From assembly GCA_018056375.1 (NCBI GenBank), contig JAGPFQ010000001.1, forward strand, positions 1 through 39,994: a DNA stretch of 39,994 nucleotides. Reading direction: 5' to 3'. This DNA comes from Candidatus Dojkabacteria bacterium. Its GTDB lineage: Bacteria > Patescibacteriota > Dojkabacteria > SC72. The position numbers and the translations under genes are program-made. The notes below the pieces were generated by a model. It made no database searches. It was not told where the DNA came from and saw only the letters and a program-made list of their open reading frames with translations. Positions 3,107 through 31,333 of the stretch are shown one piece after another (position 1 is the first letter of the stretch; each line of letters starts with the position of its first letter).

Positions 3107-4252
3107 ATGCCATCCTTTATCATTAACATACTCCTTTTCATTCTTGTAATAGGTATCCTTACATTTGTGCATGAATTAGGACACTTCTTAGCTGCAAAAG
3201 CTGTGGGTGCAAAAGTCTTTGAGTTTGCAATAGGGTTTGGTCCAAAACTCATTTCAAAGAAAATAGGTGAGACTGAATACAGTATTAGATTATTACCACT
3301 AGGAGGTTATGTAAAGATTCTGGGGGATGGAGACCCAGGCGAAGAGAAAACAAAGAAAGGGGATGAGAAAAGGAATTTAAGTAAGAAACCAAAATGGCAA
3401 CAGATAATAGTGATGGCTGCAGGAGTAACAATGAATATATTTTTAGGCATTGTTATCTTCTACATAGTTCTTTCTTCTAATAACTGGGAATTAGTTTTAA
3501 ACAATGAATTTGCAGATTTTAAACCAATAGGGGCTACAGTTAGTAGAGTTAGAGAAGGAGATGTTGAATATTCAAAGCTAATAGAGGATGGGCAAGCTAA
3601 AAAGGCAGGTATGCCAGAGAGTGGTATTCTTCGAAGTATAAATGGTAGGCAGGTTGAATACTCTGATGATGTATCTAAGATGTTGGCTAGTAAAAAGAAT
3701 GAGGATGTTATTTTAAATGTTTGTCAGGAGGATGTTTGTACTGAGTATACAGTTACTACTTCAGAGGAAGGTAAGATAGGAATTTTACTTCCTGCTAACT
3801 ATTACATGTCTCTTTCATACAAAGAGAACAAAGTCTTTTCAGGATTTGCACATGTTTTGAATAATTTTAAATTGATATTTAGCAAGATGAAGGATATGTT
3901 TTCTCTTGCTAAAAAAACAGGTGATTATAGTGAGTTATCCAATTCTGTTTCTGGTCCTGTTGGTATATATTTTGTAATAGATTACTTTAAACAATTTGGT
4001 GTTATTCCTTTCTTAGGTATGATTGCTGATCTTTCTATGTCTTTAGCTTTAATTAATATATTACCAATTCCTGCATTGGATGGTGGTAGGATAATGATAT
4101 TACTTATAGAATGGATAGTAGGTAAGGAGTTGGATGAGAAAGTAGAGAGTAGAATCATTAATATCTCTTTTATATTTTTGATAATTTTGATACTATTTAT
4201 AATAATAAAAGATATTGTTAATATAGATAGTATTAGAAATATCTTTAGTTAA
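3107..4252 (+). CDS. rseP: Site-2 intramembrane zinc metalloprotease (RseP/RIP family)
   Basis: This membrane protease cuts transmembrane substrates within the bilayer, as in sigma-factor release and signal-peptide clearance. The first membrane segment carries HELGH (residues 22-26), the zinc-binding active site. Further along are GFGP and LPLGGYVK, a PDZ domain (about 140-225), and the third zinc ligand motif NILPIPALDGGR in a later membrane helix. The C-terminus ends in a strongly hydrophobic helix. Length (381) is normal. Its three downstream neighbours are membrane-anchored surface proteins about 10-20 bases apart. This suggests one unit, and possibly a role for RseP in processing their N-terminal membrane segments. 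That link is inference. Confidence 0.93.
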   Translation: MPSFIINILLFILVIGILTFVHELGHFLAAKAVGAKVFEFAIGFGPKLISKKIGETEYSIRLLPLGGYVKILGDGDPGEEKTKKGDEKRNLSKKPKWQQIIVMAAGVTMNIFLGIVIFYIVLSSNNWELVLNNEFADFKPIGATVSRVREGDVEYSKLIEDGQAKKAGMPESGILRSINGRQVEYSDDVSKMLASKKNEDVILNVCQEDVCTEYTVTTSEEGKIGILLPANYYMSLSYKENKVFSGFAHVLNNFKLIFSKMKDMFSLAKKTGDYSELSNSVSGPVGIYFVIDYFKQFGVIPFLGMIADLSMSLALINILPIPALDGGRIMILLIEWIVGKELDEKVESRIINISFIFLIILILFIIIKDIVNIDSIRNIFS

Positions 4253-4270
4253 TATAGATACCTAATAATT

Positions 4271-5764
4271 ATGGCTAATGTTAAGATGGGGTTGAGTAAG
4301 AAGAGTACTGTTATAATACTTATTTTAATCTTTTTATTAGTAGGTGGAGGTGGTGGTTATCTATTATGGAGAGTTAATCAGAAGGAGACTGTTGCTCCTA
4401 CTGATAGTGATGCTGGTTCATGGAGTTGTAGTCCTGTATATGATGTAACTTATTATCTTCGCAATGGTACAGAAAAAAAATGCGGAGCATGTACATCTAA
4501 TCCAGAAAAACCTACTGGTCAAGGTTGTGCAGCAACTGGTCTCTATAGATATGAATGTGGGAGATATTGCTTTCATGATGGTTGTGGAAAAGAAGCTTGT
4601 GACAATATTGGCAACCTACCTAAGTTTACTCTAAAGTATAGTGCGGATGAGAATGGTAAAGTTGACAACCCAGGGCCTCATACAGTTGAAAAAGGGAAGA
4701 GTGGTCCGGCTGTAACAGCAACTCCAAATAATGCTACGACACATGAATTTGATAAGTGGAGTGATGGAAAAACAGATAATCCTAGAACAGATACAAATGT
4801 TCAAGGTAATATAACCGTTAATGCTATATTTAAAGCAAAAAGTGTTCCTGTTGAAAACTTTACTCTTCAATATACAGTACAACCAGCTGGAAGTGGTACT
4901 ATTCAAGGGAAAGCAACCCAAACAGTAAAAAAGGGTGGGGATGGAGAAAAGGTTGTAGCTGTTCCTAATTCAGGCTACAAGTTTGTAGGATGGGGTGGGG
5001 AAGATGGTTCGAAAACACCTGAGAGGCAAGATAAGAATGTCCAGAAAGATATAACAGCGATAGCAATGTTCCAAAAAGAGGGTGTTCCAGTTGAAAAAGT
5101 AAACTTGATTTACCAAGCTGGTCCCGGAGGAAAAATTGAAGGACCTGATAAACAAACAATAAATAAAGGAACAAGTGGTACAAAGGTAACTGCTAAAGCT
5201 AATGAAGGATACAAATTTGATAAATGGACTGAAAGTCCTACTGGAAAAACACAGGCTATTGTAAGTACGATGATTCCAGATAACGGATTACAGAGTTCTA
5301 GAGTGGATACAGCAGTACAAGCAAATGTAACGATAACAGCCTCATTTAAAACAGCTTGTGGTGATGGTAAATGTGATAGTTGGGAAAATATGCAAAACTG
5401 TCCTACAGACTGTGCAGGTTGTGGAGATGGTGTGTGTGCAGACGGTGAAACCCCTCAAACCTGTCCTCAAGATTGTCCTGCAGTGTGCGGAGATGGTCTA
5501 TGTACAGAAGGAGAGAGTAGCGAGAGTTGTCCTGTAGATTGTGGAGCGCCTGTTACAGGTGATTCTGTTCCAGAAACAGGTCTCTTTGATGAAACTGAAA
5601 ATATTTTAATAATGGGAGGTGTACTTTTAGTTCTAGGTATGGGATGGACATGGATCTCTACACTTCCTAAGAAAGCATATGTTACAATATCAAAAGTAAA
5701 AGATAGAAATATTGTTAAAGAAAGAGAAAGTAGAAGAAGAAAATTGGAAGAAAGAATTAAATAA
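4271..5764 (+). CDS. Surface protein 1: InlB-type repeats, CGDG Cys-rich repeats, two membrane anchors
   Basis: A membrane segment (about 13-33) runs into LLWRVNQKETVAPTDSDAG (31-49), a motif shared with the next two proteins. Residues 50-117 are Cys-rich. Three InlB/Listeria-Bacteroides-type repeats follow (about 119-194, 195-273, 274-360), each with a K-G-x-x-G-x-x-V-x-A segment and a GYKF..W strand. Next are three units of the form CGDGxCxxxExxxxCPxDC (about 362-424), rich in possible Ca-binding Asp/Glu. The C-terminus has VPETGLFDETENI, a membrane helix ending in WTWIS and a basic tail, resembling a sortase signal (PxTG, helix, positive residues). The protein is probably displayed outside the cell. 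No Shine-Dalgarno sequence is visible. The ligand and function are unknown. Confidence 0.85.
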   Translation: MANVKMGLSKKSTVIILILIFLLVGGGGGYLLWRVNQKETVAPTDSDAGSWSCSPVYDVTYYLRNGTEKKCGACTSNPEKPTGQGCAATGLYRYECGRYCFHDGCGKEACDNIGNLPKFTLKYSADENGKVDNPGPHTVEKGKSGPAVTATPNNATTHEFDKWSDGKTDNPRTDTNVQGNITVNAIFKAKSVPVENFTLQYTVQPAGSGTIQGKATQTVKKGGDGEKVVAVPNSGYKFVGWGGEDGSKTPERQDKNVQKDITAIAMFQKEGVPVEKVNLIYQAGPGGKIEGPDKQTINKGTSGTKVTAKANEGYKFDKWTESPTGKTQAIVSTMIPDNGLQSSRVDTAVQANVTITASFKTACGDGKCDSWENMQNCPTDCAGCGDGVCADGETPQTCPQDCPAVCGDGLCTEGESSESCPVDCGAPVTGDSVPETGLFDETENILIMGGVLLVLGMGWTWISTLPKKAYVTISKVKDRNIVKERESRRRKLEERIK

Positions 5765-5786
5765 TTAAACTGTTCAATATATTAAA

Positions 5787-7466
5787 ATGGTTAATGTAAA
5801 ATTTAATTCAAAGAAGGTAATAGCAATATTTGCAGTTCTACTCCTCTTGTTTGGTGGTGCAGGTGGATACCTGTTATGGAGAATTAACCAAGAACAAACA
5901 GTAGCTCCTACAGATAGTGATGCTGGGAAATGTTTGGACAGTGTGGTTATAGTTGATTTTGCTCCTTACTCTGCTGTGTCAGGGCAGAATTCTAATGAAA
6001 TGGGGTACGTTGAGGAGGTTAGAGAACAAGCTTCAATGGAATCAAAGATTGTAAGACCAGTACCACATAAGGAGGGATATCTTAGAATTACTCTTAATAA
6101 CTCCTGTGCAACTGGTGCGAAGATTAAAGCAGTGCCAAAGCCTGGTTACAAATTTAGTCATTGGGAGGAACAGACTCAAGGAGGTGCTGTGATGTCAGTT
6201 GATGGTGCTGGAGAGAAAGAAGTACAAAAGGGTTTAGAAGCCAAACTGAATACACTAAACCCAATACAGGTTAAGAGAGAACATTCTACTTTCAAGACGG
6301 GGTATGTTGTTAAAAAAGATGTGAAATTAGTTGCTAAATTTGTTCCAGAAGGAGAAGGTGATTGTAAAGAAGTGTCTGTGGTATATGAAGGTCTTAAGAC
6401 TGCAGAAGGTAGTCTCACAATACTAAAAAAGGCTGGTAATGTTGTTGAAAAAAACAACACTATTATACAATCATTCACAAAGCCTGATGAGGTAGGGTCT
6501 CAGATTAAGGCAGTTCCAGCTAGTGGGTATAAGTTTAAGCACTGGGTAAATGCTGTTTCTGGTCAGATTGAGAGTACAAGTGTAATAATTCAAAAGGATG
6601 CTAAGGAACTTTTTGGAGATAAGACATGTATAGAGAGGTCTTTTAGCTTAGTGTTAAAACCGGTGTATGAAAAAACTGGGGCAGATATTGGTCCAGATAA
6701 GCAGGCGAGGGTAATATATCAAGCAACTCCTACAGAGTGTACTAAACTTCTTGTTTGTGCACCCTCAGATGAGAATAGATTAACAGCTGCTAATTGTTTA
6801 GAGCAAACAGCAAGTGAGAATGAACATGTTATGCCTATCTCAATAGATCCTTCTAAAGATAAAGAATGTGTTTTCCAGCATTGGCTTGTTAATGGTGTTA
6901 GGGATGGTTCTGAGTTAAAGAGACATGATAGAGCAGGTAAGGCTGGCTCTGTAACAACTATAATAGCTGTGTTTAAGAAAGAAGCGACACCAACGGAACA
7001 AACATATTCATTAAGATATTCAACAGAGGGGAATGGGAAATTAAGGAAGGATGGAGGGACTCCAAGTAGTAATACGATATCAGTCACCGTTAAAGAAGGT
7101 GCAAGTGGTCCTTCCGTCAAAGCTGAACCAAATACAGGATATGAATTTGCATATTGGATAGATAATACTACTAAAAAGAAAGATACAAGTTCTTTGGCTT
7201 CCACAAATCCTAGACAGGATACTAATGTAAAAGGGAATATTTCTTTAACCGCTCATTATGAGAAGAGTGGTGGTACCACACCTCCAGATGATGGTGATAC
7301 TAAACCTCCTTCAACTGGTGATACAGATAAAGATGATTTACCTGGTACAGCTGCATCACCAGAGGGTTCATTGTATATCATAGTGGTAGGTACATTGATA
7401 TTAAGTATGGGTATGTTGTTACCATACTTACCAGCTAAGATTAATATTAAGAGAAAGGAGAGATAA
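5787..7466 (+). CDS. Surface protein 2: InlB-type repeat protein with two membrane anchors
   Basis: The N-terminal helix and LLWRINQEQTVAPTDSDAG motif match those of its two neighbours. The extracellular part has at least four repeat-like units marked by GYKFSHW, GYKFKHW, CVFQHW and GYEFAYW, each preceded by a K-A-x-P strand, as in InlB B-type repeats. A Pro/Gly/Asp-rich linker (about 500-525) leads to LPGTAASPEG, a membrane helix and KINIKRKER. LPGTA is a weak or degenerate sortase-like motif, unlike the clean PxTG of the neighbours. Length is 559. It is separated from the gene before by 22 bases and from the next by 9, so cotranscription is likely. Function is unknown; adhesion or surface display is inferred. 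Confidence 0.82.
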   Translation: MVNVKFNSKKVIAIFAVLLLLFGGAGGYLLWRINQEQTVAPTDSDAGKCLDSVVIVDFAPYSAVSGQNSNEMGYVEEVREQASMESKIVRPVPHKEGYLRITLNNSCATGAKIKAVPKPGYKFSHWEEQTQGGAVMSVDGAGEKEVQKGLEAKLNTLNPIQVKREHSTFKTGYVVKKDVKLVAKFVPEGEGDCKEVSVVYEGLKTAEGSLTILKKAGNVVEKNNTIIQSFTKPDEVGSQIKAVPASGYKFKHWVNAVSGQIESTSVIIQKDAKELFGDKTCIERSFSLVLKPVYEKTGADIGPDKQARVIYQATPTECTKLLVCAPSDENRLTAANCLEQTASENEHVMPISIDPSKDKECVFQHWLVNGVRDGSELKRHDRAGKAGSVTTIIAVFKKEATPTEQTYSLRYSTEGNGKLRKDGGTPSSNTISVTVKEGASGPSVKAEPNTGYEFAYWIDNTTKKKDTSSLASTNPRQDTNVKGNISLTAHYEKSGGTTPPDDGDTKPPSTGDTDKDDLPGTAASPEGSLYIIVVGTLILSMGMLLPYLPAKINIKRKER

Positions 7467-7475
7467 TTATTACCT

Positions 7476-10157
7476 ATGAAGAATATTAGATTTAGAGCTA
7501 ATAAAAAGACATTAGTAATGCTACTAGTAGTTTTCTTAATATTAGTTGGTACTGGTGGTTTCCTATTATGGAGAGTTAATCAACAAGATACTGTAGCTCC
7601 TACGGATAGTGATGCTGGTGGAGGTGGTGGAAATGGTAGTGGTATACCTTGTTGTTGTGATAGCGTAAAGAAATCATGTGATGGAATTTCTGCTTGCAAG
7701 TATAAATATGTTTGTAAAAAAGAGGGTATCTGTTTAGCTCCTAAAACATGTGGAGGAAGAGATACAGGCCATTCATGTAATACTGACAAGGATTGTGAAA
7801 CTTGTGCAGAATATGGGTGTGTAAAGCCAGGAATTTGTAAGCCAAGTAAAGTATGTAGTACTAATCCTAATAAAAGCTGTAGAACAGATGATGAGTGTTG
7901 TGAACAAGGATGTATTAGAAAAAATACAGAGGAGTGTAAATTTGCATCTAGTGGAGGTGTATGTAAACATAACAGAAGTATATCTTGCGGCGAAGATAGT
8001 GACTGTTGCCAGGAAATAGAAAAAATTCTTGATAGCCCTGTTCCTAAGTGTACCTGTACAATGCTCGAAGGTTGTTGTCATAATGTTAATCAGTGTAAAA
8101 CGACTCCTCCAGGTGGTACTAGTAGACCAGATTGTCCATATAACTGTGTATGGCCATTTGTTTCTTGGTACTTTACAGGTGAACTTGAGGGAACAGAAAA
8201 AGGTTGTCAATGTGCACCATGTGATTATGATAGACCAGGAGCTGGTCCATATTGTTTGGATAATGCTCCTACATGTAACCCTGGAGCTTGTCCTGCAGGG
8301 TATCAAGAACATACATATGATTGGAATTGTAATGCAATGATGAATGGAGGTTTAGATAGATTAAATGCCTTCCTAAGAGAAAATGGAGTCCCAAATCCAA
8401 GACTATGTGGTGCTGGTAATAATGATAAAATATGTGTAACAGAATGCAAAGCAAAATGTGCTGGGTGTAATAATGAGTATAAAGCATATAGATATTGTGT
8501 AAAAGAAACTCCTGCACCTACTTGTGGTGATGGTAATCTAGATCCAGGAGAACAGTGCGATCCACCAGGCTCCACATGTGCTAATGGCCAGATATGTAGT
8601 ACTGATTGTACATGTCCAGAACCAGCACCTACTTGTGGTGATGGTAATCTAGATCCCGGAGAAGAATGTGATCCACCAGGTAGCACTTGTACTAATGGTC
8701 AAACATGTAACACTGATTGTAAGTGTCCTGAACCTCCTCGAGGACCAGAAGTCTGTGATGGTGTAGGTAAAGGGGATAAGATAATATTTAGCAATGGAAG
8801 AGAAGTAGATGGTAAGTATATTTACAACAACCATGAAGAAGTTCAATATGAATATGTAATGGGGGATAGTGAGGGTATAAACTTAGTACCGGGAGAACAC
8901 TATGTGAAAGTAAAAGTTGGAACAACTGATATCATTGGTTCTCGTCTACATCCTCAACCAACACTAACACCTAGTACTGGAAGTCCTAAGAAGGTAACTA
9001 TTCAAGGAAAACTAAACACATCGCTTCAACGTTTAAGTCCGGGAATAAAGCCCATGAGTATATTCTGGAAGCGAGTAGGAGAAACAGGAGCATATAGTGC
9101 AGCTTGTCAAGCCAAGAGAAGCTTTACCATTAATGCATGTGATGCAGTTGGAGCAAAATGGTCAATCTTACCTCCAAAGAAAATTACAGTAGGTAAAGAA
9201 ATCCCATTTAAATATATTACAGGTGATACCGATGGTGTTGATAATGCAAGTATAACTGTGTTGCTAGGGGAAGATTCTGTAAGTGTAACCAAAAAATCCC
9301 TGACTAATGGTATGGTTGAGATAACTGGAGAACTATCCTCATTAGAGACAGGGAATTACACTTTAGAAATAAAATGGAAAGATATATATGGAGCTGGCAA
9401 TACAACCCCTTGTTATGCAAAAGCAGAATTTGAGGTAGTTGAAAGAAGAGTACCAGATTGGGATATAGATAAAGTTGCGGCAGAGACATGTATAGATGAT
9501 CGTACAGAAAATCCTAAAGCTAAGATAACCAATACCATAACAGTAACAAATAATGGAGATGGTGTAGGTGGTTTGAAAAATATAGTTGACACATTAGATA
9601 CTAAGGTTGTTGGAGGTACAGTAACAGATATCTCTCATGGTGGAGTATATGCAAATGGTAAGATAACATGGACTTTTGAGACTGGTTCAGAGTTAGCCAA
9701 CTACAACCCAGGGCAATCTAAAACATTTACATACTCCTACATAGTAGAAAAAGATAAATTTGGTATCTATGACAACACAGCAGTTGCAACAACAGCAGGA
9801 GATAATACACTAGAAGCAGGAGCTAGTATAGAGGCAAGATGTAATGTTGTAACTCCAACCTGTGGTGATGGTAAAGTTGATAAAGATAAAGGCGAACAGT
9901 GTGATCCACCAGGCAGTACATGTATAAATGCTTATGGTCAAGAGAGTATATGTACAGACCTATGTGCTTGTCCAGGAGAAACTCCAATACCAAAGACAGG
10001 TCTATTTGATGAATCTGAAAACATTGTCATATTGGGTGCAGTCATACTATTTGCAGGTCTAGGATGGACATGGATAAGTAATACATATTCTGTGGTAAAC
10101 GGTAAATTAGTTCAGCGAAGAAAAGAGCAATTTGAACAAAGGGTGGTCAAAAAGTAA
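7476..10157 (+). CDS. Surface protein 3: large Cys-rich protein with two membrane anchors
   Basis: This 893-residue protein begins with the same membrane helix and LLWRVNQQDTVAPTDSDAG motif as proteins 1 and 2. A Gly-rich spacer leads to an exceptionally Cys-rich region (about 59-345), with runs such as CCCD and C-x(2-6)-C patterns expected of disulfide-knotted modules. Two near-identical 37-residue units starting CGDGNLDPGE lie at about 347-421, and a third variant near 796. Between them are Ig-like strands (about 425-660) and a DUF11-like repeat (about 676-787) with NTITVTNNGDG and YNPGQSKTFTYSY. The end, IPKTGLFDESENI plus a membrane helix and a basic tail, matches surface protein 1. So many cysteines imply an oxidising extracellular site. 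The binding partner is unknown. Confidence 0.82.
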   Translation: MKNIRFRANKKTLVMLLVVFLILVGTGGFLLWRVNQQDTVAPTDSDAGGGGGNGSGIPCCCDSVKKSCDGISACKYKYVCKKEGICLAPKTCGGRDTGHSCNTDKDCETCAEYGCVKPGICKPSKVCSTNPNKSCRTDDECCEQGCIRKNTEECKFASSGGVCKHNRSISCGEDSDCCQEIEKILDSPVPKCTCTMLEGCCHNVNQCKTTPPGGTSRPDCPYNCVWPFVSWYFTGELEGTEKGCQCAPCDYDRPGAGPYCLDNAPTCNPGACPAGYQEHTYDWNCNAMMNGGLDRLNAFLRENGVPNPRLCGAGNNDKICVTECKAKCAGCNNEYKAYRYCVKETPAPTCGDGNLDPGEQCDPPGSTCANGQICSTDCTCPEPAPTCGDGNLDPGEECDPPGSTCTNGQTCNTDCKCPEPPRGPEVCDGVGKGDKIIFSNGREVDGKYIYNNHEEVQYEYVMGDSEGINLVPGEHYVKVKVGTTDIIGSRLHPQPTLTPSTGSPKKVTIQGKLNTSLQRLSPGIKPMSIFWKRVGETGAYSAACQAKRSFTINACDAVGAKWSILPPKKITVGKEIPFKYITGDTDGVDNASITVLLGEDSVSVTKKSLTNGMVEITGELSSLETGNYTLEIKWKDIYGAGNTTPCYAKAEFEVVERRVPDWDIDKVAAETCIDDRTENPKAKITNTITVTNNGDGVGGLKNIVDTLDTKVVGGTVTDISHGGVYANGKITWTFETGSELANYNPGQSKTFTYSYIVEKDKFGIYDNTAVATTAGDNTLEAGASIEARCNVVTPTCGDGKVDKDKGEQCDPPGSTCINAYGQESICTDLCACPGETPIPKTGLFDESENIVILGAVILFAGLGWTWISNTYSVVNGKLVQRRKEQFEQRVVKK
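8514..8735 (+). repeat. Tandem 111-bp repeat inside surface protein 3
   Basis: Two direct copies with exact 111-base (37-codon) spacing start at 8514 and 8625, each encoding APTCGDGNLDPGE and then CDPPGSTC. The first 25 or so bases of each copy are identical, which suggests recent duplication. A diverged third unit starts near 9859. Confidence 0.8.
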
Positions 10158-10204: not shown

Positions 10205-10405
10205 ATGGCAGTTATCGTACACTCTAACGAAAACATAGACAGTGCTTTAAGAAGACTTCACAGAGAAGTCCTTAGAGAAAAAACTCTAGAAACTTTCAAA
10301 AACAAGCAGTACAGAATTAAAAAATCTGACCTTGAGATTGCCAAGAGAAAAGAATGGGCAAAAAGAAAGAGAAGAAGAAGAGCAGCTGCAAGAAGAGCTA
10401 GATAA
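10205..10405 (+). CDS. rpsU: 30S ribosomal protein S21
   Basis: S21 is a small, basic protein of the 30S platform near the anti-Shine-Dalgarno region. The 66-residue product shows the family pattern: VIVHSNENIDSALRRLHREV at the start, then the strongly basic C-terminus (KRKEWAKRKRRRRAAARRAR). It has its own promoter and an excellent ribosome binding site. As in many bacteria it is followed by yqeY, with an 18-base gap and then ybeY, so the three are likely cotranscribed. Confidence 0.95.
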   Translation: MAVIVHSNENIDSALRRLHREVLREKTLETFKNKQYRIKKSDLEIAKRKEWAKRKRRRRAAARRAR

Positions 10406-17929: not shown

Positions 17930-18385
17930 TTAATATTCTTTCCTGATGTACAACCAGCGATATCCGTCTATAAGTTCTTCCTCTTCTAGCATAAGGTCAA
18001 AGGGGTTTTGTCGTAGGTACTCTTTTGCTTTCTCCAAATCGTTGATTTTGGGAAGTCTTTTTGCTTGAAAGGGTCCTTGAAATAGTCTACCAACTTGTTG
18101 GTGTTTTCTGTTGAAGTACATAGCATATGCTGTCATAAAGCGTTGCATAAAACGAGAAACAGCTCTCTTGTTTTCCCCAATCTTTACGATTAGATGGTAG
18201 TGGTTTGGCATCAAACAGTAAGCTATGAGTTTTAGGCTAGAACCTTTGAGATATGTATAGAGTAGATTGACAAAAGTTTGATAGTCTTTTTCATCCCGAA
18301 AAATCTCCATCTTCCTATTTCCCCTGTTATACAGGTGGTAGTAGGAGTTTCGTTTGTACAAGAGAAAAACTTTTTCTTTTCGCAT
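17930..18385 (-). CDS. REP-associated tyrosine transposase (Y1/HUH)
   Basis: A single-strand HUH-type transposase-like nuclease. It begins YHLYNRGNRKMEIFRDEKDY, the family N-terminus. PNHYHLIV carries the His-x-His metal site, and the region around FMTAYAMYFNRKHQQVGRLFQGPFQAKR contains candidate catalytic Tyr residues. The end has YLRQNPFDLMLEE. I start it at the ATG at 18385, giving 151 residues. A longer frame to 18511 exists but would translate through the right REP sequence, which is unlikely to be coding. It is encoded opposite to its neighbours and flanked by inverted REP-like sites it probably recognises. Confidence 0.85.
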   Translation of the reverse strand: MRKEKVFLLYKRNSYYHLYNRGNRKMEIFRDEKDYQTFVNLLYTYLKGSSLKLIAYCLMPNHYHLIVKIGENKRAVSRFMQRFMTAYAMYFNRKHQQVGRLFQGPFQAKRLPKINDLEKAKEYLRQNPFDLMLEEEELIDGYRWLYIRKEY

Positions 18386-18421
18386 ACATCCATTATCGCA
18401 TGCAAAGATTAAATAATTATG

Positions 18422-18448
18422 AACGAGGGGCAGGCCTAGGCCAGACCT
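18422..18448 (+). repeat. Right REP-like sequence
   Basis: Inverted copy of the left repeat, with the core GGCCTAGGCC at 18433-18442. AGGGG (18426-18430) can also pair with CCCCT (18455-18459), and CTTTTTT follows, so on the plus strand it forms part of a terminator-like hairpin. Confidence 0.75.
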
Positions 18449-18511
18449 AATATTCCCCTCTTTTTTCATGTATAATACCAATGGATATATAAATTTTTTG
18501 TTTTTAAACAT

Positions 18512-19438: not shown

Positions 19439-19455
19439 CTTAAACTTGCTTGATA

Positions 19456-21663
19456 ATGGATACACTAGGAGGTCGTTTTTTAAGTGAGAACGAAGATACT
19501 CTTGTTGACTCTAAACCTGTTCAATACAATGCTGAGCAGAAAGATATACATGATTCTTCTCCTGCGGAACAAGTGTCTTCTTGGACTGATACCGTGGAGG
19601 GTATATATACTAAACACAGGGATAACCCTGAGGTGATGGGTAGGATTAAGCAATACTATTATGATAAGTATGTAATCAAGGATGAAGATTTCCCAGAGAG
19701 CTACTTTATCAATCGACAGAGAAAAGCAGCAGAGGAAGGGCGTGGTAATACTGAGATAACAGATACGCTTAAAAGAAAGGACATGGATATGGAGCAAAAA
19801 GACCAGAAGCAATCATTGGATTTATGGATAGATTATTTTGCTTCTCCTGATTCAAACCATCTCCCTTCTTGGATGAAGTACTGGGCTTTTAATGGGATGG
19901 TTAAGTTAGCTAGATATAATGAGGAGAAAAAGGAGTTTGAGCCTAGGATGAAGGACACAGTTTCTAATTTTATATATCCCAATCGAGCTGCTTTAGCAAA
20001 GACACTTGATATATTACAGGCTAAATATGGTAAGGAGTATTTTAATTTAACAGATAGAATCACAGAGAAACATGCTCAACTTAAGGGTGTGGAGTCATTA
20101 GAGCGAAAGAAGAGGATATTAGAATTAGTAGAACAACAAGGTTTAGAACAGGTAAGTGGCAAAAATATTACAGTTAAGGATGAGGAGACAGGTCAGGTTA
20201 TGAATGTTAAGAGGAGAGATTTGCAGAGAATGCGAGAAGAAGCAATCGCATTAAAGGAATTAAAGCCTTTATCTAGTAATGAAATTAAAGAAGAGATACA
20301 AAGTTTAATCAACCAAAGATCTAAGGTTTTAGAAGAACGGGGAGTTCCAAAGAAGTTTACAAATATAGATATAAAGGACGAGGATTTTGCAAAGCTTTAC
20401 ACTTATGCCTACAATGAGGTTCAAGCTACTAAGTATATTGAAAAAGAAATTGTGGATGGTCAATGGGTGAAATTCCCACAGGGTTCAGATCCTAAGAAGC
20501 TCGTTGAAGCTATTCAGGGTTTTGGTACTGAATGGTGTACAGAGGGAGAAAGTACAGCTGAGAAACAATTGGGGCAAGGTGATTTCTATATTTATTTTTC
20601 TAATAATTCTGAAGGTAGGTCAGTTAATCCTAGGATAGCTATCAAGATGGAGTGGAGCCAAATAAGTGAGATTAGAGGCATAGATAAGGATCAGGAATTA
20701 GATTCTTATATTTTAGAATCAGGTGTTTTGGAAGAGAAGCTTAAGGAGTTTGGTGCTGAGAGTGCAAAATATCATCAGAGAGTAGAAGATATGAAGAGGA
20801 TGACGAGGATAGATAAGCAGGTCAAAGCAGGTGAAGATTTAACACAGGAAGACCTTTGGTTTTTGTATGAAATTGATAGACGCATAGAGGGTTTTGGGCT
20901 TAAGAAAGATCCTAGAATAGAGGAGATACTTTCAAAGAGGATTTTAAGGCAGGATTTAGCTTGTATTTTTAATTGTAGTGAGAATCAAATAAGTTTGACA
21001 AAGGAGGAGGCATTAAGAGGTGATATTAAATATCATCATGGTCGTCTTGATGTTAATCTTTTAATCGAAGTTAAAGATTTGGTTCTTCCAGAAAGAATAT
21101 GGGGAGACCTTACACTTGGCAGATTAACTACTGCTAGTGGTTTAATCTTTCCAAAGAATATAGGTGGAAGTCTTATAATGAATAATTTAACCGAGATCAA
21201 AGATTCCGTCTTTCCACAGAATATACAAGGAAGTCTTCGACTGAATGGTTTAACCAGAGCCAAAGACTTAGTTCTTACTGAGAATGTAGGTGGAGATGTT
21301 ACACTTGATTATTTGGTGAGTGCAAAAGGATTAGTTTTCCCAAAAAGTATAGGTGGAGACCTTCAACTTAATAGTTTGAAGAATGCGAAAGATTTGATTT
21401 TGCCAGAAAGTATAGGTAGAAATCTTGAACTTAATGGTTTAAGAAGTGCAAAGGGATTAATCATCCCAGATGGAGTAGTAAAAGAGGCTCTTTCTCTTTC
21501 TAACTTAAGAAGTACAAAAGGATTAAACCTTCCAAAGGGTGTAAAACATGTGTATATAGGAGAGTATATCAGTAATGGAGAGTTGTTCAAGTTAAGAAGA
21601 CAATATCCAGATATAAATATTCAGAGAGAGAAAGATCTTTCTGAATATTACAGACCCTTTTAA
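19456..21663 (+). CDS. Large protein of unknown function with 21-residue repeat tail
   Basis: I use the ATG at 19456 (735 residues); the only upstream in-frame start is a TTG two codons earlier. No signal peptide or membrane segment is seen, so it is probably cytoplasmic. Residues 1-340 are charged and helical. A conserved-looking block at about 350-400 reads AIQGFGTEWCTEG, then GDFYIYFSN and PRIAIKMEW, resembling a compact enzyme-like or binding domain that I cannot name. Residues about 542-700 are seven to eight units of about 21 residues with the pattern L-x-F/L-P-x-x-I-G-G-x-L-x-L-x-x-L-x-x-A-K-x, a leucine-rich or beta-solenoid-like tail. It lies between recR and cysS. Function unknown. 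Confidence 0.85.
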   Translation: MDTLGGRFLSENEDTLVDSKPVQYNAEQKDIHDSSPAEQVSSWTDTVEGIYTKHRDNPEVMGRIKQYYYDKYVIKDEDFPESYFINRQRKAAEEGRGNTEITDTLKRKDMDMEQKDQKQSLDLWIDYFASPDSNHLPSWMKYWAFNGMVKLARYNEEKKEFEPRMKDTVSNFIYPNRAALAKTLDILQAKYGKEYFNLTDRITEKHAQLKGVESLERKKRILELVEQQGLEQVSGKNITVKDEETGQVMNVKRRDLQRMREEAIALKELKPLSSNEIKEEIQSLINQRSKVLEERGVPKKFTNIDIKDEDFAKLYTYAYNEVQATKYIEKEIVDGQWVKFPQGSDPKKLVEAIQGFGTEWCTEGESTAEKQLGQGDFYIYFSNNSEGRSVNPRIAIKMEWSQISEIRGIDKDQELDSYILESGVLEEKLKEFGAESAKYHQRVEDMKRMTRIDKQVKAGEDLTQEDLWFLYEIDRRIEGFGLKKDPRIEEILSKRILRQDLACIFNCSENQISLTKEEALRGDIKYHHGRLDVNLLIEVKDLVLPERIWGDLTLGRLTTASGLIFPKNIGGSLIMNNLTEIKDSVFPQNIQGSLRLNGLTRAKDLVLTENVGGDVTLDYLVSAKGLVFPKSIGGDLQLNSLKNAKDLILPESIGRNLELNGLRSAKGLIIPDGVVKEALSLSNLRSTKGLNLPKGVKHVYIGEYISNGELFKLRRQYPDINIQREKDLSEYYRPF
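21079..21560 (+). repeat. 63-bp periodic repeat encoding the solenoid-like tail
   Basis: Units start at 21079, 21142, 21205, 21268, 21331, 21394 and 21457, exactly 63 bases apart, with a last unit near 21523 after one extra codon. Each encodes a variant of L-V-F-P-x-x-I-G-G-D-L-x-L. DNA copies have diverged while the protein pattern is kept. Confidence 0.8.
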
Positions 21664-24145: not shown

Positions 24146-25273
24146 ATGAAACGTTTTCAGACTATAGTAGTAGGTGCAGGACCCGCAGGTTTATGTGCAG
24201 CTTTAGCTTTGTATAAAGAAAATATAAAGGACATATGTATTATAGAAATACAAAATAGAAATTTTCATAAACCTTGTGCTGGATTATTAACTTCTAAATC
24301 AAATGACAACTTCAAGCTCTTAGGTATCGATGTCCAGAGAGATTTGGAATACTACAAAGTAAAAAATATCCTTGTATTTAATGATGATGAATATATATTT
24401 GAAGTTCAATATAAAAACAAAGAAGATTTTTCCTTCCTTTTATCTCGCAAACCTGATCGAAAAACATTAGATACATATATGAGAGAAAAATGTGAAGATT
24501 TAGGTATAAAAATATTTTATGAGACACAAATAGAAGATTTAAATATTGAAGAGAAAGAGTTAAAGACTAATAAAGATGTATTTAAATATGATAGTTTAAT
24601 ATTTGCAGATGGAGTTAATGGTTTTAGTAGAAGGTATAACAAATTGAAATCTAAGAATATATCTGTTGAGGCAGTAGTAAAAGCTACTAGGAAAGAAGAG
24701 TTTGTGAATCTGTATTTTGGAGTTGCTGACCAAGGATATGCTTGGATAGCGAATACAGGCACATATGTTAATATTGGTTTTACTGATTTATTCGAAGAAA
24801 AAACAAACTATGTCAATAAGTTGATCGAATTTGCTAAAAAATATGGATATGACATAGCTAAGAAAGATGTTGTAGGAGCTACATACCCAAACCATCCGCA
24901 TAAAAACGTAGCTTTTGATGATATTTATCTCATTGGGGATGCTGCAGGAATAACAGATCCATGGACGGCAGAAGGACTTTATTATGCATCCTCAACTGCA
25001 ATGCTTGTTGCAAAAGCAATAAAAAACAATGATAACACTATCTATTTGAGAGGTATTAGAGGTTTTCAATCAAAATCTAAATTTCATCACAGAGTTAAGA
25101 AGTTTTTTTACAGACGATTTATTAGACAAAAATTTTTCAATCTATGTAAAAAGAAGACTGGATTTATATCTTTCCTGCTTTATCATTACCTTTTAAAGGG
25201 AACTTACAATACTATTGTAGAAGCATACCGTGAATATAAAAAGAGCAGGGAGATTGTTAAGAATGAGTTATAA
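24146..25273 (+). CDS. FAD-dependent oxidoreductase, geranylgeranyl reductase-like (copy 1)
   Basis: The Rossmann motif VVGAGPAGLCAALAL at the N-terminus binds FAD. KPCAGLLTSKSNDNFKLLG and the late FAD motif YLIGDAAGITDPWTAEGLYYA place it in the geranylgeranyl reductase/PHBH-like family. Relatives reduce isoprenoid chains or hydroxylate aromatics. The substrate is not clear. It has 375 residues with a basic C-terminal segment (RVKKFFYRRFIRQKF) that may touch the membrane. TATAAT at 24112-24117 may be its -10. It is followed 17 bases later by a paralogue. The stretch looks AT-richer than the flanking genes, which hints at acquisition. Confidence 0.82.
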   Translation: MKRFQTIVVGAGPAGLCAALALYKENIKDICIIEIQNRNFHKPCAGLLTSKSNDNFKLLGIDVQRDLEYYKVKNILVFNDDEYIFEVQYKNKEDFSFLLSRKPDRKTLDTYMREKCEDLGIKIFYETQIEDLNIEEKELKTNKDVFKYDSLIFADGVNGFSRRYNKLKSKNISVEAVVKATRKEEFVNLYFGVADQGYAWIANTGTYVNIGFTDLFEEKTNYVNKLIEFAKKYGYDIAKKDVVGATYPNHPHKNVAFDDIYLIGDAAGITDPWTAEGLYYASSTAMLVAKAIKNNDNTIYLRGIRGFQSKSKFHHRVKKFFYRRFIRQKFFNLCKKKTGFISFLLYHYLLKGTYNTIVEAYREYKKSREIVKNEL

Positions 25274-25290
25274 CCTATATGGACGAACAC

Positions 25291-26373
25291 ATGAAAAAAT
25301 ATCAAGTGATAATCGTTGGAGCAGGGCCTGCAGGATTGTGTACTGCCTTATCTTTACATCAAAACAATATCAAAGACATATGTATTATAGAGATTAACAA
25401 CGAAACATTTCATAAACCATGTGCTGGCTTTTTAACCTCTAAATCGAGAGATAATTTACAACTTTTGGGTGTAGATGTAGAAAAAGACTTAAATTATCAA
25501 AGAGTTAATAGTTTTGATTTGTTTAATAATAAAAAATATATCATGAATGTAAACAATCAATGTAAAGAAGACTTTATTATTATGTTTAATGAAAAACCAA
25601 ATAGAGAGGTTTTAGATAATCACTTGAGAAAGAAAGTAAAAGATTTAGGTGTTGAAATTTTTTATAACACAAAGATTACTGATGTAAATATCTCTAAAAA
25701 AGAAGTTGTTACTGAAGGTGAAATATTTAAATATAATTACTTAGTGTTTGCAGATGGAATGAATGGTTATAGTAGGAAATTTAATAAAGTTAAATCTAAG
25801 AATATATCGATAGAAGCAGTTTTTGAGCTAGATCAAAGAGTGGAACAATTTGTTGATGGATATCTTGGAGTGTCAAAACAAGGTTATGCTTGGGTTTTTT
25901 GCTCAGGAACTTATGTAAGTATTGGATTGACAGATTTTTACAAAAAGGAAGAAGATTATATAAACAAGTTGATTCTGTTTGGGAGAGAAAAAGGATATTC
26001 TATTAACAAGGAAGATATAAAAGGAGCTTTTTTCTCAGATGGTCTTAATAAGAATATAGTTTTTGATGATGTCTATTTGATTGGGGATGCTGCTGGTATG
26101 ACAAACCCTTTGTCTGCAGAGGGACTGTATTATGCAAGTGAGATGGCAATTCTTTTAGCAAAATCTGTTAAACAGAATGACCCTGATATTTATTTAGAAG
26201 AGATAAAACGACATGGGAAGGTTATAAATAAATATAAAAGACTGAGAAAACCATTTTTTAGTAAATTTGGGCGTTTTATTTTATTTGATATTATAGCTAA
26301 AAGATTTCCTGGGTTTGCAACTGAAGTCTTTTTGAAACAGATACAGAAAACATATAGGAAAAGGCATGTTTGA
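25291..26373 (+). CDS. FAD-dependent oxidoreductase, geranylgeranyl reductase-like (copy 2)
   Basis: A tandem paralogue of the gene before. The start at 25291 (MKKYQVIIVGAGPAGLC) aligns with that of copy 1; an ATG four codons earlier is possible. It has the same blocks: KPCAGFLTSKSRDNLQLLG, GYLGVSKQGYAWVFCSGTYVSIGLTDF and YLIGDAAGMTNPLSAEGLYYA. Copy 1 has DPWTAEG where this has NPLSAEG. Overall similarity is clear but well diverged, so the duplication is old and substrates may differ. Length is 360. Its TGA overlaps an ATG of a small downstream frame. Confidence 0.82.
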   Translation: MKKYQVIIVGAGPAGLCTALSLHQNNIKDICIIEINNETFHKPCAGFLTSKSRDNLQLLGVDVEKDLNYQRVNSFDLFNNKKYIMNVNNQCKEDFIIMFNEKPNREVLDNHLRKKVKDLGVEIFYNTKITDVNISKKEVVTEGEIFKYNYLVFADGMNGYSRKFNKVKSKNISIEAVFELDQRVEQFVDGYLGVSKQGYAWVFCSGTYVSIGLTDFYKKEEDYINKLILFGREKGYSINKEDIKGAFFSDGLNKNIVFDDVYLIGDAAGMTNPLSAEGLYYASEMAILLAKSVKQNDPDIYLEEIKRHGKVINKYKRLRKPFFSKFGRFILFDIIAKRFPGFATEVFLKQIQKTYRKRHV

Positions 26374-30013: not shown

Positions 30014-31333
30014 ATGAAAAAACTTCTTTCTTTAATATCTATCTTTCTACTGTCATTTTCCTTTTTTACAACATCTGTATTTGCAGATGGTTTTACTAAC
30101 AGTGGTGATAATGAGCAGAACTTGTTTTACTCAACAATAGCTTACAGTATCGATTCCTTATCACTTCCCGAATCTTCAAGTAGTCATGGTGGAATAGAGT
30201 ATGATTTAGCTAATGTAGTTGGGAGTATGACAGGTCAGGTGCATTGGGATTTATGGATGCTCAAAGAACCAGGTTATCCTTTTAGAAAAGGGACGGATGG
30301 AACGTATGTAGCTGTGCCTCCTGGGTCTGTAGTTGATGTTACCTACTTTTACTCTAATCAAACAGGTCATACAGTTTTCATTCCCGAAGTTGATGTTGCA
30401 TATACTAGAAATGAACCAGTAGAAGAATCTTTTTTTACTAACTTTGCATCATTTGAGAATGGAGAAGGAGATTTAAATTCTCTTGATTTGTTAAATATGG
30501 GACAAACAGTAATTAGAAATGGTGTTCTACGCAGGTATTCAGGTGTTGGTAATGTTGAGTATACTCATCATGGAAAAATGCATTTAGATAAATTGCATGT
30601 CAAAAATCCAATTTATCTAATAGATGCTTTTGCACAAGAAGAAGGTGATAGTTATCAAGTTTCTGTTAGACTTAGAAATGTTGGCTCTGATAAATTAAAT
30701 CGTGTGTATCTTAGACATAAGGATTTTTTTGGTGTCGCTTCTTTAGAACCACAGGAAGATGCTAATTTCATATACTACCTTCCTAAAGAAAACATTGAAG
30801 AGGATGGTACATTTGGTTCTTTTACTGTAGAGGTTCCTGATTCTTCAAAGAGATGTTCTGTTTTTGGTAATAACTTTAGTTACAATTTTAATATTGATTC
30901 TGTTTCTGTGTTTTCTGCAAGAATGGATGGTGGGCTGGTTTCTGGTTGGATGTTAGCTGAACCTAAAGAAGCTTTCTGTATTGAGAGGATTCCTTTTAAA
31001 ATGACTTCTTCACCAGTTATGTTAGTAGAAGAGGGGGATAACAGTAATGTGGAGGAGTTGTCTCCAGAAGTAGAAGAAGAGAGTGAACAGGAGAATGTTT
31101 TAAATGAAGATAAAAAGATTTTAGGTATAAGTTCATCTTTGAAAGAGTTACCAAAAACAGGGATTGATAATACATATTTAATTTACCCAACACTCTTACT
31201 CCTTGTTGTTGATATATTTCTCTGGTATTCTGTTCTTAGAAAAAGATTTAAAAAGAGGGTATATGGAAGTAGAAATATTTTTACCAAATTATGTACAAAA
31301 AGTAGCAAGAATTCTGTTAAAGGAAGGATTTGA
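30014..31333 (+). CDS. LPKTG-anchored surface protein of unknown function
   Basis: A clear signal peptide (MKKLLSLISIFLLSF to about residue 24, ending SVFA-DG) is followed by about 330 residues of strand-rich extracellular protein with few cysteines. An acidic linker (about 335-365) precedes ELPKTG (about 378-383), a membrane helix and RKRFKKR, the standard sortase sorting signal. No enzymatic motif is recognised. AAGGG precedes the ATG. Its last 71 bases overlap the start of cca in another frame, so the two are tightly linked. No sortase gene is in the window. Confidence 0.82.
   Translation: MKKLLSLISIFLLSFSFFTTSVFADGFTNSGDNEQNLFYSTIAYSIDSLSLPESSSSHGGIEYDLANVVGSMTGQVHWDLWMLKEPGYPFRKGTDGTYVAVPPGSVVDVTYFYSNQTGHTVFIPEVDVAYTRNEPVEESFFTNFASFENGEGDLNSLDLLNMGQTVIRNGVLRRYSGVGNVEYTHHGKMHLDKLHVKNPIYLIDAFAQEEGDSYQVSVRLRNVGSDKLNRVYLRHKDFFGVASLEPQEDANFIYYLPKENIEEDGTFGSFTVEVPDSSKRCSVFGNNFSYNFNIDSVSVFSARMDGGLVSGWMLAEPKEAFCIERIPFKMTSSPVMLVEEGDNSNVEELSPEVEEESEQENVLNEDKKILGISSSLKELPKTGIDNTYLIYPTLLLLVVDIFLWYSVLRKRFKKRVYGSRNIFTKLCTKSSKNSVKGRI

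Follow-up and report, generated by a model that had tools for sequence, protein, structure and literature searches.

A probable long export leader, conserved on surface proteins of Dojkabacteria, ends in a site resembling that of signal peptidase I

The wall proteins of Gram-positive bacteria pair an N-terminal leader with a C-terminal sorting signal, and in staphylococci and streptococci sortase-anchored proteins carry a conserved leader motif, YSIRK-G/S, the leader and tail being shared and the middle different. The sites cut by signal peptidase I follow the -3,-1 rule, with a helix breaker at -4 to -6 (PMC9360617). Here we describe a family of surface proteins of Candidatus Dojkabacteria (WS6) that can be likened to these wall proteins, starting from three neighbouring genes, named S1, S2 and S3, in a window of 39,994 nucleotides (the whole stretch of DNA analysed, contig JAGPFQ010000001.1) from a genome of 812 kb that is 98% complete. 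With the YSIRK-G/S proteins the family has in common a conserved leader motif, a shared leader and tail, and a differing middle. YSIRK-G/S lies before and in the hydrophobic core, whereas the motif of the present family spans the helix end and a c-region some 15 residues long, and YSIRK/GxxS was absent, by inspection, from 53 family leaders. The features of the locus, in window coordinates, are as follows.

3107..4252 (+), RseP-type site-2 protease (M50; PF02163, E=2.8e-56), a housekeeping neighbour rather than a demonstrated partner
4271..5764 (+), S1, surface protein of 497 residues, type A paralogue
4271..4414 (+), leader of S1, with a basic N-terminus and a membrane helix followed by LLWRVNQKETVAPTDSDA; cut proposed after Ala48
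4874..5080 (+), best InlB B-type repeat match among three such stretches in S1 (PF18998, E=1.2e-26)
5567..5761 (+), S1 C-terminal sorting-type signal: VPETGLFD, helix and basic tail, end RRRKLEERIK
5787..7466 (+), S2, surface protein of 559 residues
5787..5924 (+), S2 leader, proposed cut after SDA
7005..7265 (+), S2 InlB B-type repeat, common to S1 (PF18998, E=7.6e-16; blastp 39% over 88 residues)
7338..7463 (+), S2 C-terminus: LPGTA, helix and basic end, of a class other than S1 and S3
7476..10157 (+), S3, Cys-rich surface protein of 893 residues, type B paralogue
7476..7616 (+), S3 leader, proposed cut after SDA, then GGGGG
9093..9875 (+), conserved region of S3 near the membrane, all-beta by prediction, with Ig-like matches and a DUF11-like part (24-member alignment, AlphaFold, Foldseek)
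9987..10154 (+), S3 C-terminal sorting-type signal: IPKTGLFD, helix and tail, end FEQRVVKK
10205..10405 (+), basic protein of 66 residues, likely ribosomal protein S21 (rpsU), named by sequence resemblance; it closes the conserved slot

The original prediction that these three proteins share an N-terminal motif was confirmed, and all three open reading frames (ORFs) are present at the positions listed. Each protein begins with a basic stretch that runs into a membrane helix and then into GG[YF]LLWR[VI]NQxxTVAPTDSDAG, in which LLWR, NQ and TVAPTDSDAG are invariant; over the first 47-49 residues of the alignment, identity to S1 is 56-62%. Searching the whole genome with this stretch returned S1, S2 and S3 as its only carriers. 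A profile built from the three leaders (the three-row alignment with which the genome collection was scanned) matched relatives with E-values down to 6e-27 within the same genus and near 1e-11 for the order's other families, and a chance origin of the motif is therefore excluded. The motif is thus not absent from relatives: it is kept across genus, family and order, and in a reduced form in the class, and it always lies at the start of exported proteins. Selection on the motif had also been argued from synonymous codon differences. Thr44 is indeed encoded by ACT, ACA and ACG; nevertheless, within residues 29-49 identical codons occupy 15 of 18 identical positions between S1 and S3 (9/18 for S1 and S2, 11/17 for S2 and S3), so that for the S1/S3 pair the argument is weak. 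The true evidence of constraint comes from the relatives.

Where the full sequence of the motif decays across the class, its end is kept. When 53 family leaders were aligned on the Trp at the helix end, a small-x-Ala triplet ended 15 residues beyond it (W+15) in 48, and three more keep the triplet after indels of 1-3 residues. Across the class, the profile gave 83 matches, seven of which fall short of the site. In the 76 sequences alignable through it, P1 is Ala in every case and P3 is small in 75 (S in 60, G in 6, T in 5, A in 4; the remaining one has I), while P6 is Pro in 65 and P1' is G, A, S or T in 68, mostly G or A. As the sequences are related, these counts are not independent events, and what is informative is which changes occur. 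In divergent families of the class TVAPTDSDAG becomes VTPDESKAA, VTPTPGEAA, EAPEDSAAG or LGPDATLAG, among others; P3 varies among small residues, neighbouring residues change more freely, and conservation drops sharply past the P1 Ala. Matches outside the class were weak and mostly stopped before the site. The conserved P6/P3/P1 pattern matches that of signal peptidase I sites. From the alignments, a cut further towards the N-terminus, where the helix ends in Gly (GGGGG↓YLLW, the arrow marking the cut), was also considered and rejected: the other families of the class do not conserve small residues at that place, and their helix continues as AIYIGxRL. No conserved Cys or lipobox was found at the helix end when the leaders were tested for lipoprotein (Sec/signal peptidase II) signals.

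The C-terminal ends of the proteins resemble sortase sorting signals. As originally noted, a P[EK]TGLFDE[TS]EN-helix-WTWIS end is common to two of the three proteins, namely S1 and S3; S2 ends in LPGTA and a helix. Among 48 complete family members, 44 end in PxT[GA] and a helix (38 PxTG and 6 PxTA), and LPGTS or MPQTS is found in another two. As a consensus, xPxTG[IL]FD is followed by a helix in which two Gly are conserved and by a long basic tail whose end reads [FL]E[KR][KR][VI]xK. The family is thus like LPXTG sortase substrates in its PxT[GA] motif, hydrophobic helix and basic tail, and in the presence of sortases in the genome (three, by PF04203 matches). It differs in often having I, V, A or Q in place of the first Leu and in its long tail with a conserved end, and the strict LPXTG profile (TIGR01167) failed, S1 reaching 10.4 bits against a cut-off of 15.9 by alignment to its N-terminal helix and S2 and S3 giving no match. 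The suggested co-occurrence of motif and sortases is real and at the same time uninformative, sortases being found in 96 of 97 genomes.

The same C-terminal module also occurs behind other N-termini. A protein of 390 residues in the same genome (G000:C8:138160-139332; L139:1161-2333) carries this long-tailed PKTGLFD end behind an ordinary signal peptide (TAFA↓AC), and in relatives the module is found on proteins with the ordinary signal peptides IASA↓EY, SFA↓AG and PVSA↓GS. The module is therefore separable from the leader, which takes the place of a signal peptide. A protein of 596 residues encoded after HolA in the same genome likewise carries the module, here with an N-terminal helix. It occupies a second surface-protein slot directly after HolA (G000:C2:540977-542767; L140:2478-4268), which is found in nearly all relatives of the family; the proteins of this slot have an N-terminal helix, begin with a conserved C[GA]CYYIDP and end in the PxTGIFD C-terminal module. 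As a contrast set, they carry VSPTDTSA at the matching place in some genera, and most members have no site. A further secreted protein within the window (30014-31333) combines an ordinary signal peptide with an ELPKTG sorting signal of the classical type, and lies beside a glycosyltransferase-like gene.

The motif marks an old, vertically inherited Dojkabacteria family held at one chromosomal spot. In about 30 relatives the slot rseP-[1-3 copies]-rpsU-yqeY is occupied by the surface family, and at some 30 independent loci the gene order reads radC-rpsB-tsf-frr-rseP-[1 to 3 surface genes]-small basic ORF (rpsU-like)-yqeY-ybeY-pth-mfd-dnaX. The few copies found at other loci do not lie beside rseP. 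In a tree made from leader and tail, S1, S2 and S3 each group with sequences of other genomes, and the copies must therefore predate the source genome. Support is 0.94 for the clade of S1 and 1.0 for the pair formed by S2; S3 groups visibly, its own node not passing 0.85. The family is nonetheless accessory, since in two genomes of the same genus (G003 and G007) the surface genes have been lost from the slot. The motif had been put forward as an undescribed sorting, cleavage or assembly signal. The data give good support to a conserved signal for targeting or cleavage; a scattered sorting tag was rejected, the motif being mostly tied to this one orthologous slot, and the role assigned to RseP did not hold either (see below). 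In one genus (g11), a membrane-anchored protein of 205-207 residues is inserted between rseP and the surface gene (L064 8165-8788 (-) and L070 4094-4711 (-)).

Between leader and tail, the ectodomains do not differ completely, contrary to what had been proposed. S1 and S2 share InlB B-type repeats (PF18998; the 88-residue blastp match listed above), a likeness to surface proteins with InlB B-repeats (PF18998/PF09479); the leucine-rich repeat part of InlB-type invasins was not seen in S1-S3. In S3, a membrane-proximal region of about 240 residues recurs in more than 20 relatives and is shared by S3-type proteins. The AlphaFold model of this region is confidently all-beta, with a pLDDT (predicted local distance difference test) of 91, and Foldseek matched it to Ig-like and bacterial adhesin folds with template-modelling scores of 0.2-0.4, which allow a general statement only. 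Its DUF11-like (PF01345) match is below the curated cut-off; the likeness to DUF11 surface proteins lies in this DUF11-like, Ig-like region near the membrane.

The simplest and best reading of these observations, tentative and at close to even chances, is a conserved long export leader that signal peptidase I would cut at SxA↓G and that is borne by putative sortase substrates. From the site and the tail we infer the cut after SxA, the enzyme that makes it and the attachment by sortase. The basic N-terminus and membrane helix would start export through Sec; the long conserved segment outside the membrane, RxNQxxTVAPTDSDA, would end in the signal-peptidase-I-like S-x-A↓G. The genome encodes a single signal peptidase I, with the expected SM and K motifs, and this enzyme would cut there; at the other end, one of the three sortases would cut within the PxT[GA]-helix-basic tail and attach the protein to the envelope. 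What then makes up the mature protein would be a variable middle between two conserved, removable ends. With Sec/signal peptidase I signal peptides the leader shares a basic start, a hydrophobic core, P6 Pro, small P3, P1 Ala and a small P1', and it differs from them by the strongly conserved gap of about 15 residues between helix and site. A basic n-region and a hydrophobic core are present at the N-terminus; the stretch from Trp33 to Ala48, however, exceeds the usual c-region, and because the strict LPXTG profile also fails, we class the family as a variant, not a plain member, of the Sec/signal peptidase I and LPXTG classes.

Several points weigh against cleavage. The site lies outside the membrane, some 15 residues beyond the helix, and the c-region contains charges, whereas c-regions usually span 3-7 residues, or 9-11 in Gram-positives, and processing of an engineered amylase stopped at a 13-residue c-region (PMC12190922). 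The ordinary signal peptides of this lineage also have short c-regions (VFA↓DG and IYA↓QK in the window, by inspection, and the TAFA↓AC of the same genome). Among the seven matches that fall short of the site, one (L034 2409-4169) is a real family member from which the site has been lost, the rest of the protein being intact. Furthermore, a retained N-terminal anchor is evidently tolerated, as HolA-slot proteins with the helix, the same C-terminus and no site indicate. Either the signal peptidase of this lineage has a longer reach, or the cut is made by a different protease, or the helix is kept, and it is because of this distance that cleavage is given a chance of near one half. The main rival, for which there is a real though smaller chance, is that the helix is never removed and serves as a membrane anchor, with NQxxTVAPTDSDAG as a short conserved stalk near the membrane that perhaps packs against the C-terminal helix or a partner; the ectodomain would then be tethered at its N-terminus, and also at its C-terminus unless a sortase cuts. 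It is favoured by a distance beyond normal signal-peptide geometry, by the helix, of about 20 residues with a conserved Gly-rich stretch and a Trp-Arg end resembling an interface anchor, and by the many HolA-slot proteins whose N-terminal helix has no cut site. A stalk, however, leaves unexplained why P1 Ala and P3 S/T/G/A are fixed while their flanks change across the class, and on paralogues that end in this C-terminus the N-terminal part is an ordinary, cleavable signal peptide. Rather unlikely, and compatible with a leader either cut or uncut, is that LLWRxNQxxTVAP acts like YSIRK-G/S as a routing signal for a dedicated factor, such as a translocon partner, a chaperone or a septum-targeting system. 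The helix end and c-region are conserved far beyond what an ordinary signal peptide needs, and in Staphylococcus aureus a conserved signal-peptide motif of sortase substrates directs septal secretion (PMC5962339, PMC11898559); yet no candidate reader gene was found, and as the motif occurs mostly within one orthologous family, shared descent explains part of its identity.

Other proteases and recent duplication fare worse. RseP, encoded directly upstream, had been proposed as the processing enzyme; it adjoins the surface genes in nearly all slots, and E. coli RseP removes signal peptide remnants (PMC8144685). Against this, rpsB-tsf-frr-rseP is a housekeeping order, and rseP is present in 92 of 97 genomes, is kept in G003 and G007, which have no surface genes in the slot, and is missing beside the copies at other loci. 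In bacteria rseP ordinarily follows frr. Presence/absence and synteny rule RseP out as a dedicated partner, and a dedicated processing role for it is very improbable; general clearance of the cut leader by RseP is possible. An apparent joint loss of rseP and the family in G010 and G014 was discarded, as frr is missing there too and an assembly gap is most likely; in G019, frr is present and rseP and yqeY were not found, the contig not having been followed. One relative (G023:C66:43745-45139, in L044) has an RseP ORF of 470 residues that is matched twice by overlapping parts of the query (2-235 and 160-380), which hints at an internal duplication or at a fault of the assembly. Cleavage of the helix by a rhomboid protease, for which its Gly-rich end might speak, is hardly credible, since PF01694 had no match in the genome and all 14 control genomes (14/14) were positive. 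Nearly as implausible is that the N-terminus is shared through recent duplication only and is itself without function: S1, S2 and S3 are indeed tandem paralogues, but S1-, S2- and S3-type orthologues exist separately in relatives, and different families of the class conserve the site.

Elsewhere in the window, positions 19450-21663 encode a protein of 737 residues with leucine-rich-repeat-like repeats (..LxxAKDLVLPENIGGDLxLxxL..) in its C-terminal part, and 24146-26373 hold two tandem paralogous genes resembling, in sequence only, geranylgeranyl reductases dependent on flavin adenine dinucleotide. A gene like those of REP (repetitive extragenic palindrome)-associated transposases (17930-18511 (-); YHLYNRGN...) is probably a mobile element, and a similar short ORF is present in L039.

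Gly directly follows the proposed cut in 34 of 52 members, compared with a background of 9.5%, often with further Gly in S3-type proteins (GGGGG in S3 itself), and in ligation work sortase A accepts an N-terminal Gly as nucleophile (PMC10818881). It is a highly speculative and quite improbable idea that sortase joins the PxT end of one protein to the exposed N-terminal Gly of the next, giving head-to-tail covalent surface chains, and a flexible linker would give the same Gly pattern. Should it be true, the long leader would be a maturation signal creating the acceptor Gly. If the leader is cut at SxA, the signal peptidase of this lineage acts at a distance from the membrane that halted processing of the engineered amylase; if it is not, the invariant Ala requires another explanation. 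Dojkabacteria have tiny genomes, and their surface proteins are essentially undescribed: a literature search gave a single paper in which both Dojkabacteria and sortase appear. With its locus, leader and tail, the family provides a findable set of surface proteins, and thereby markers for surface proteomics.

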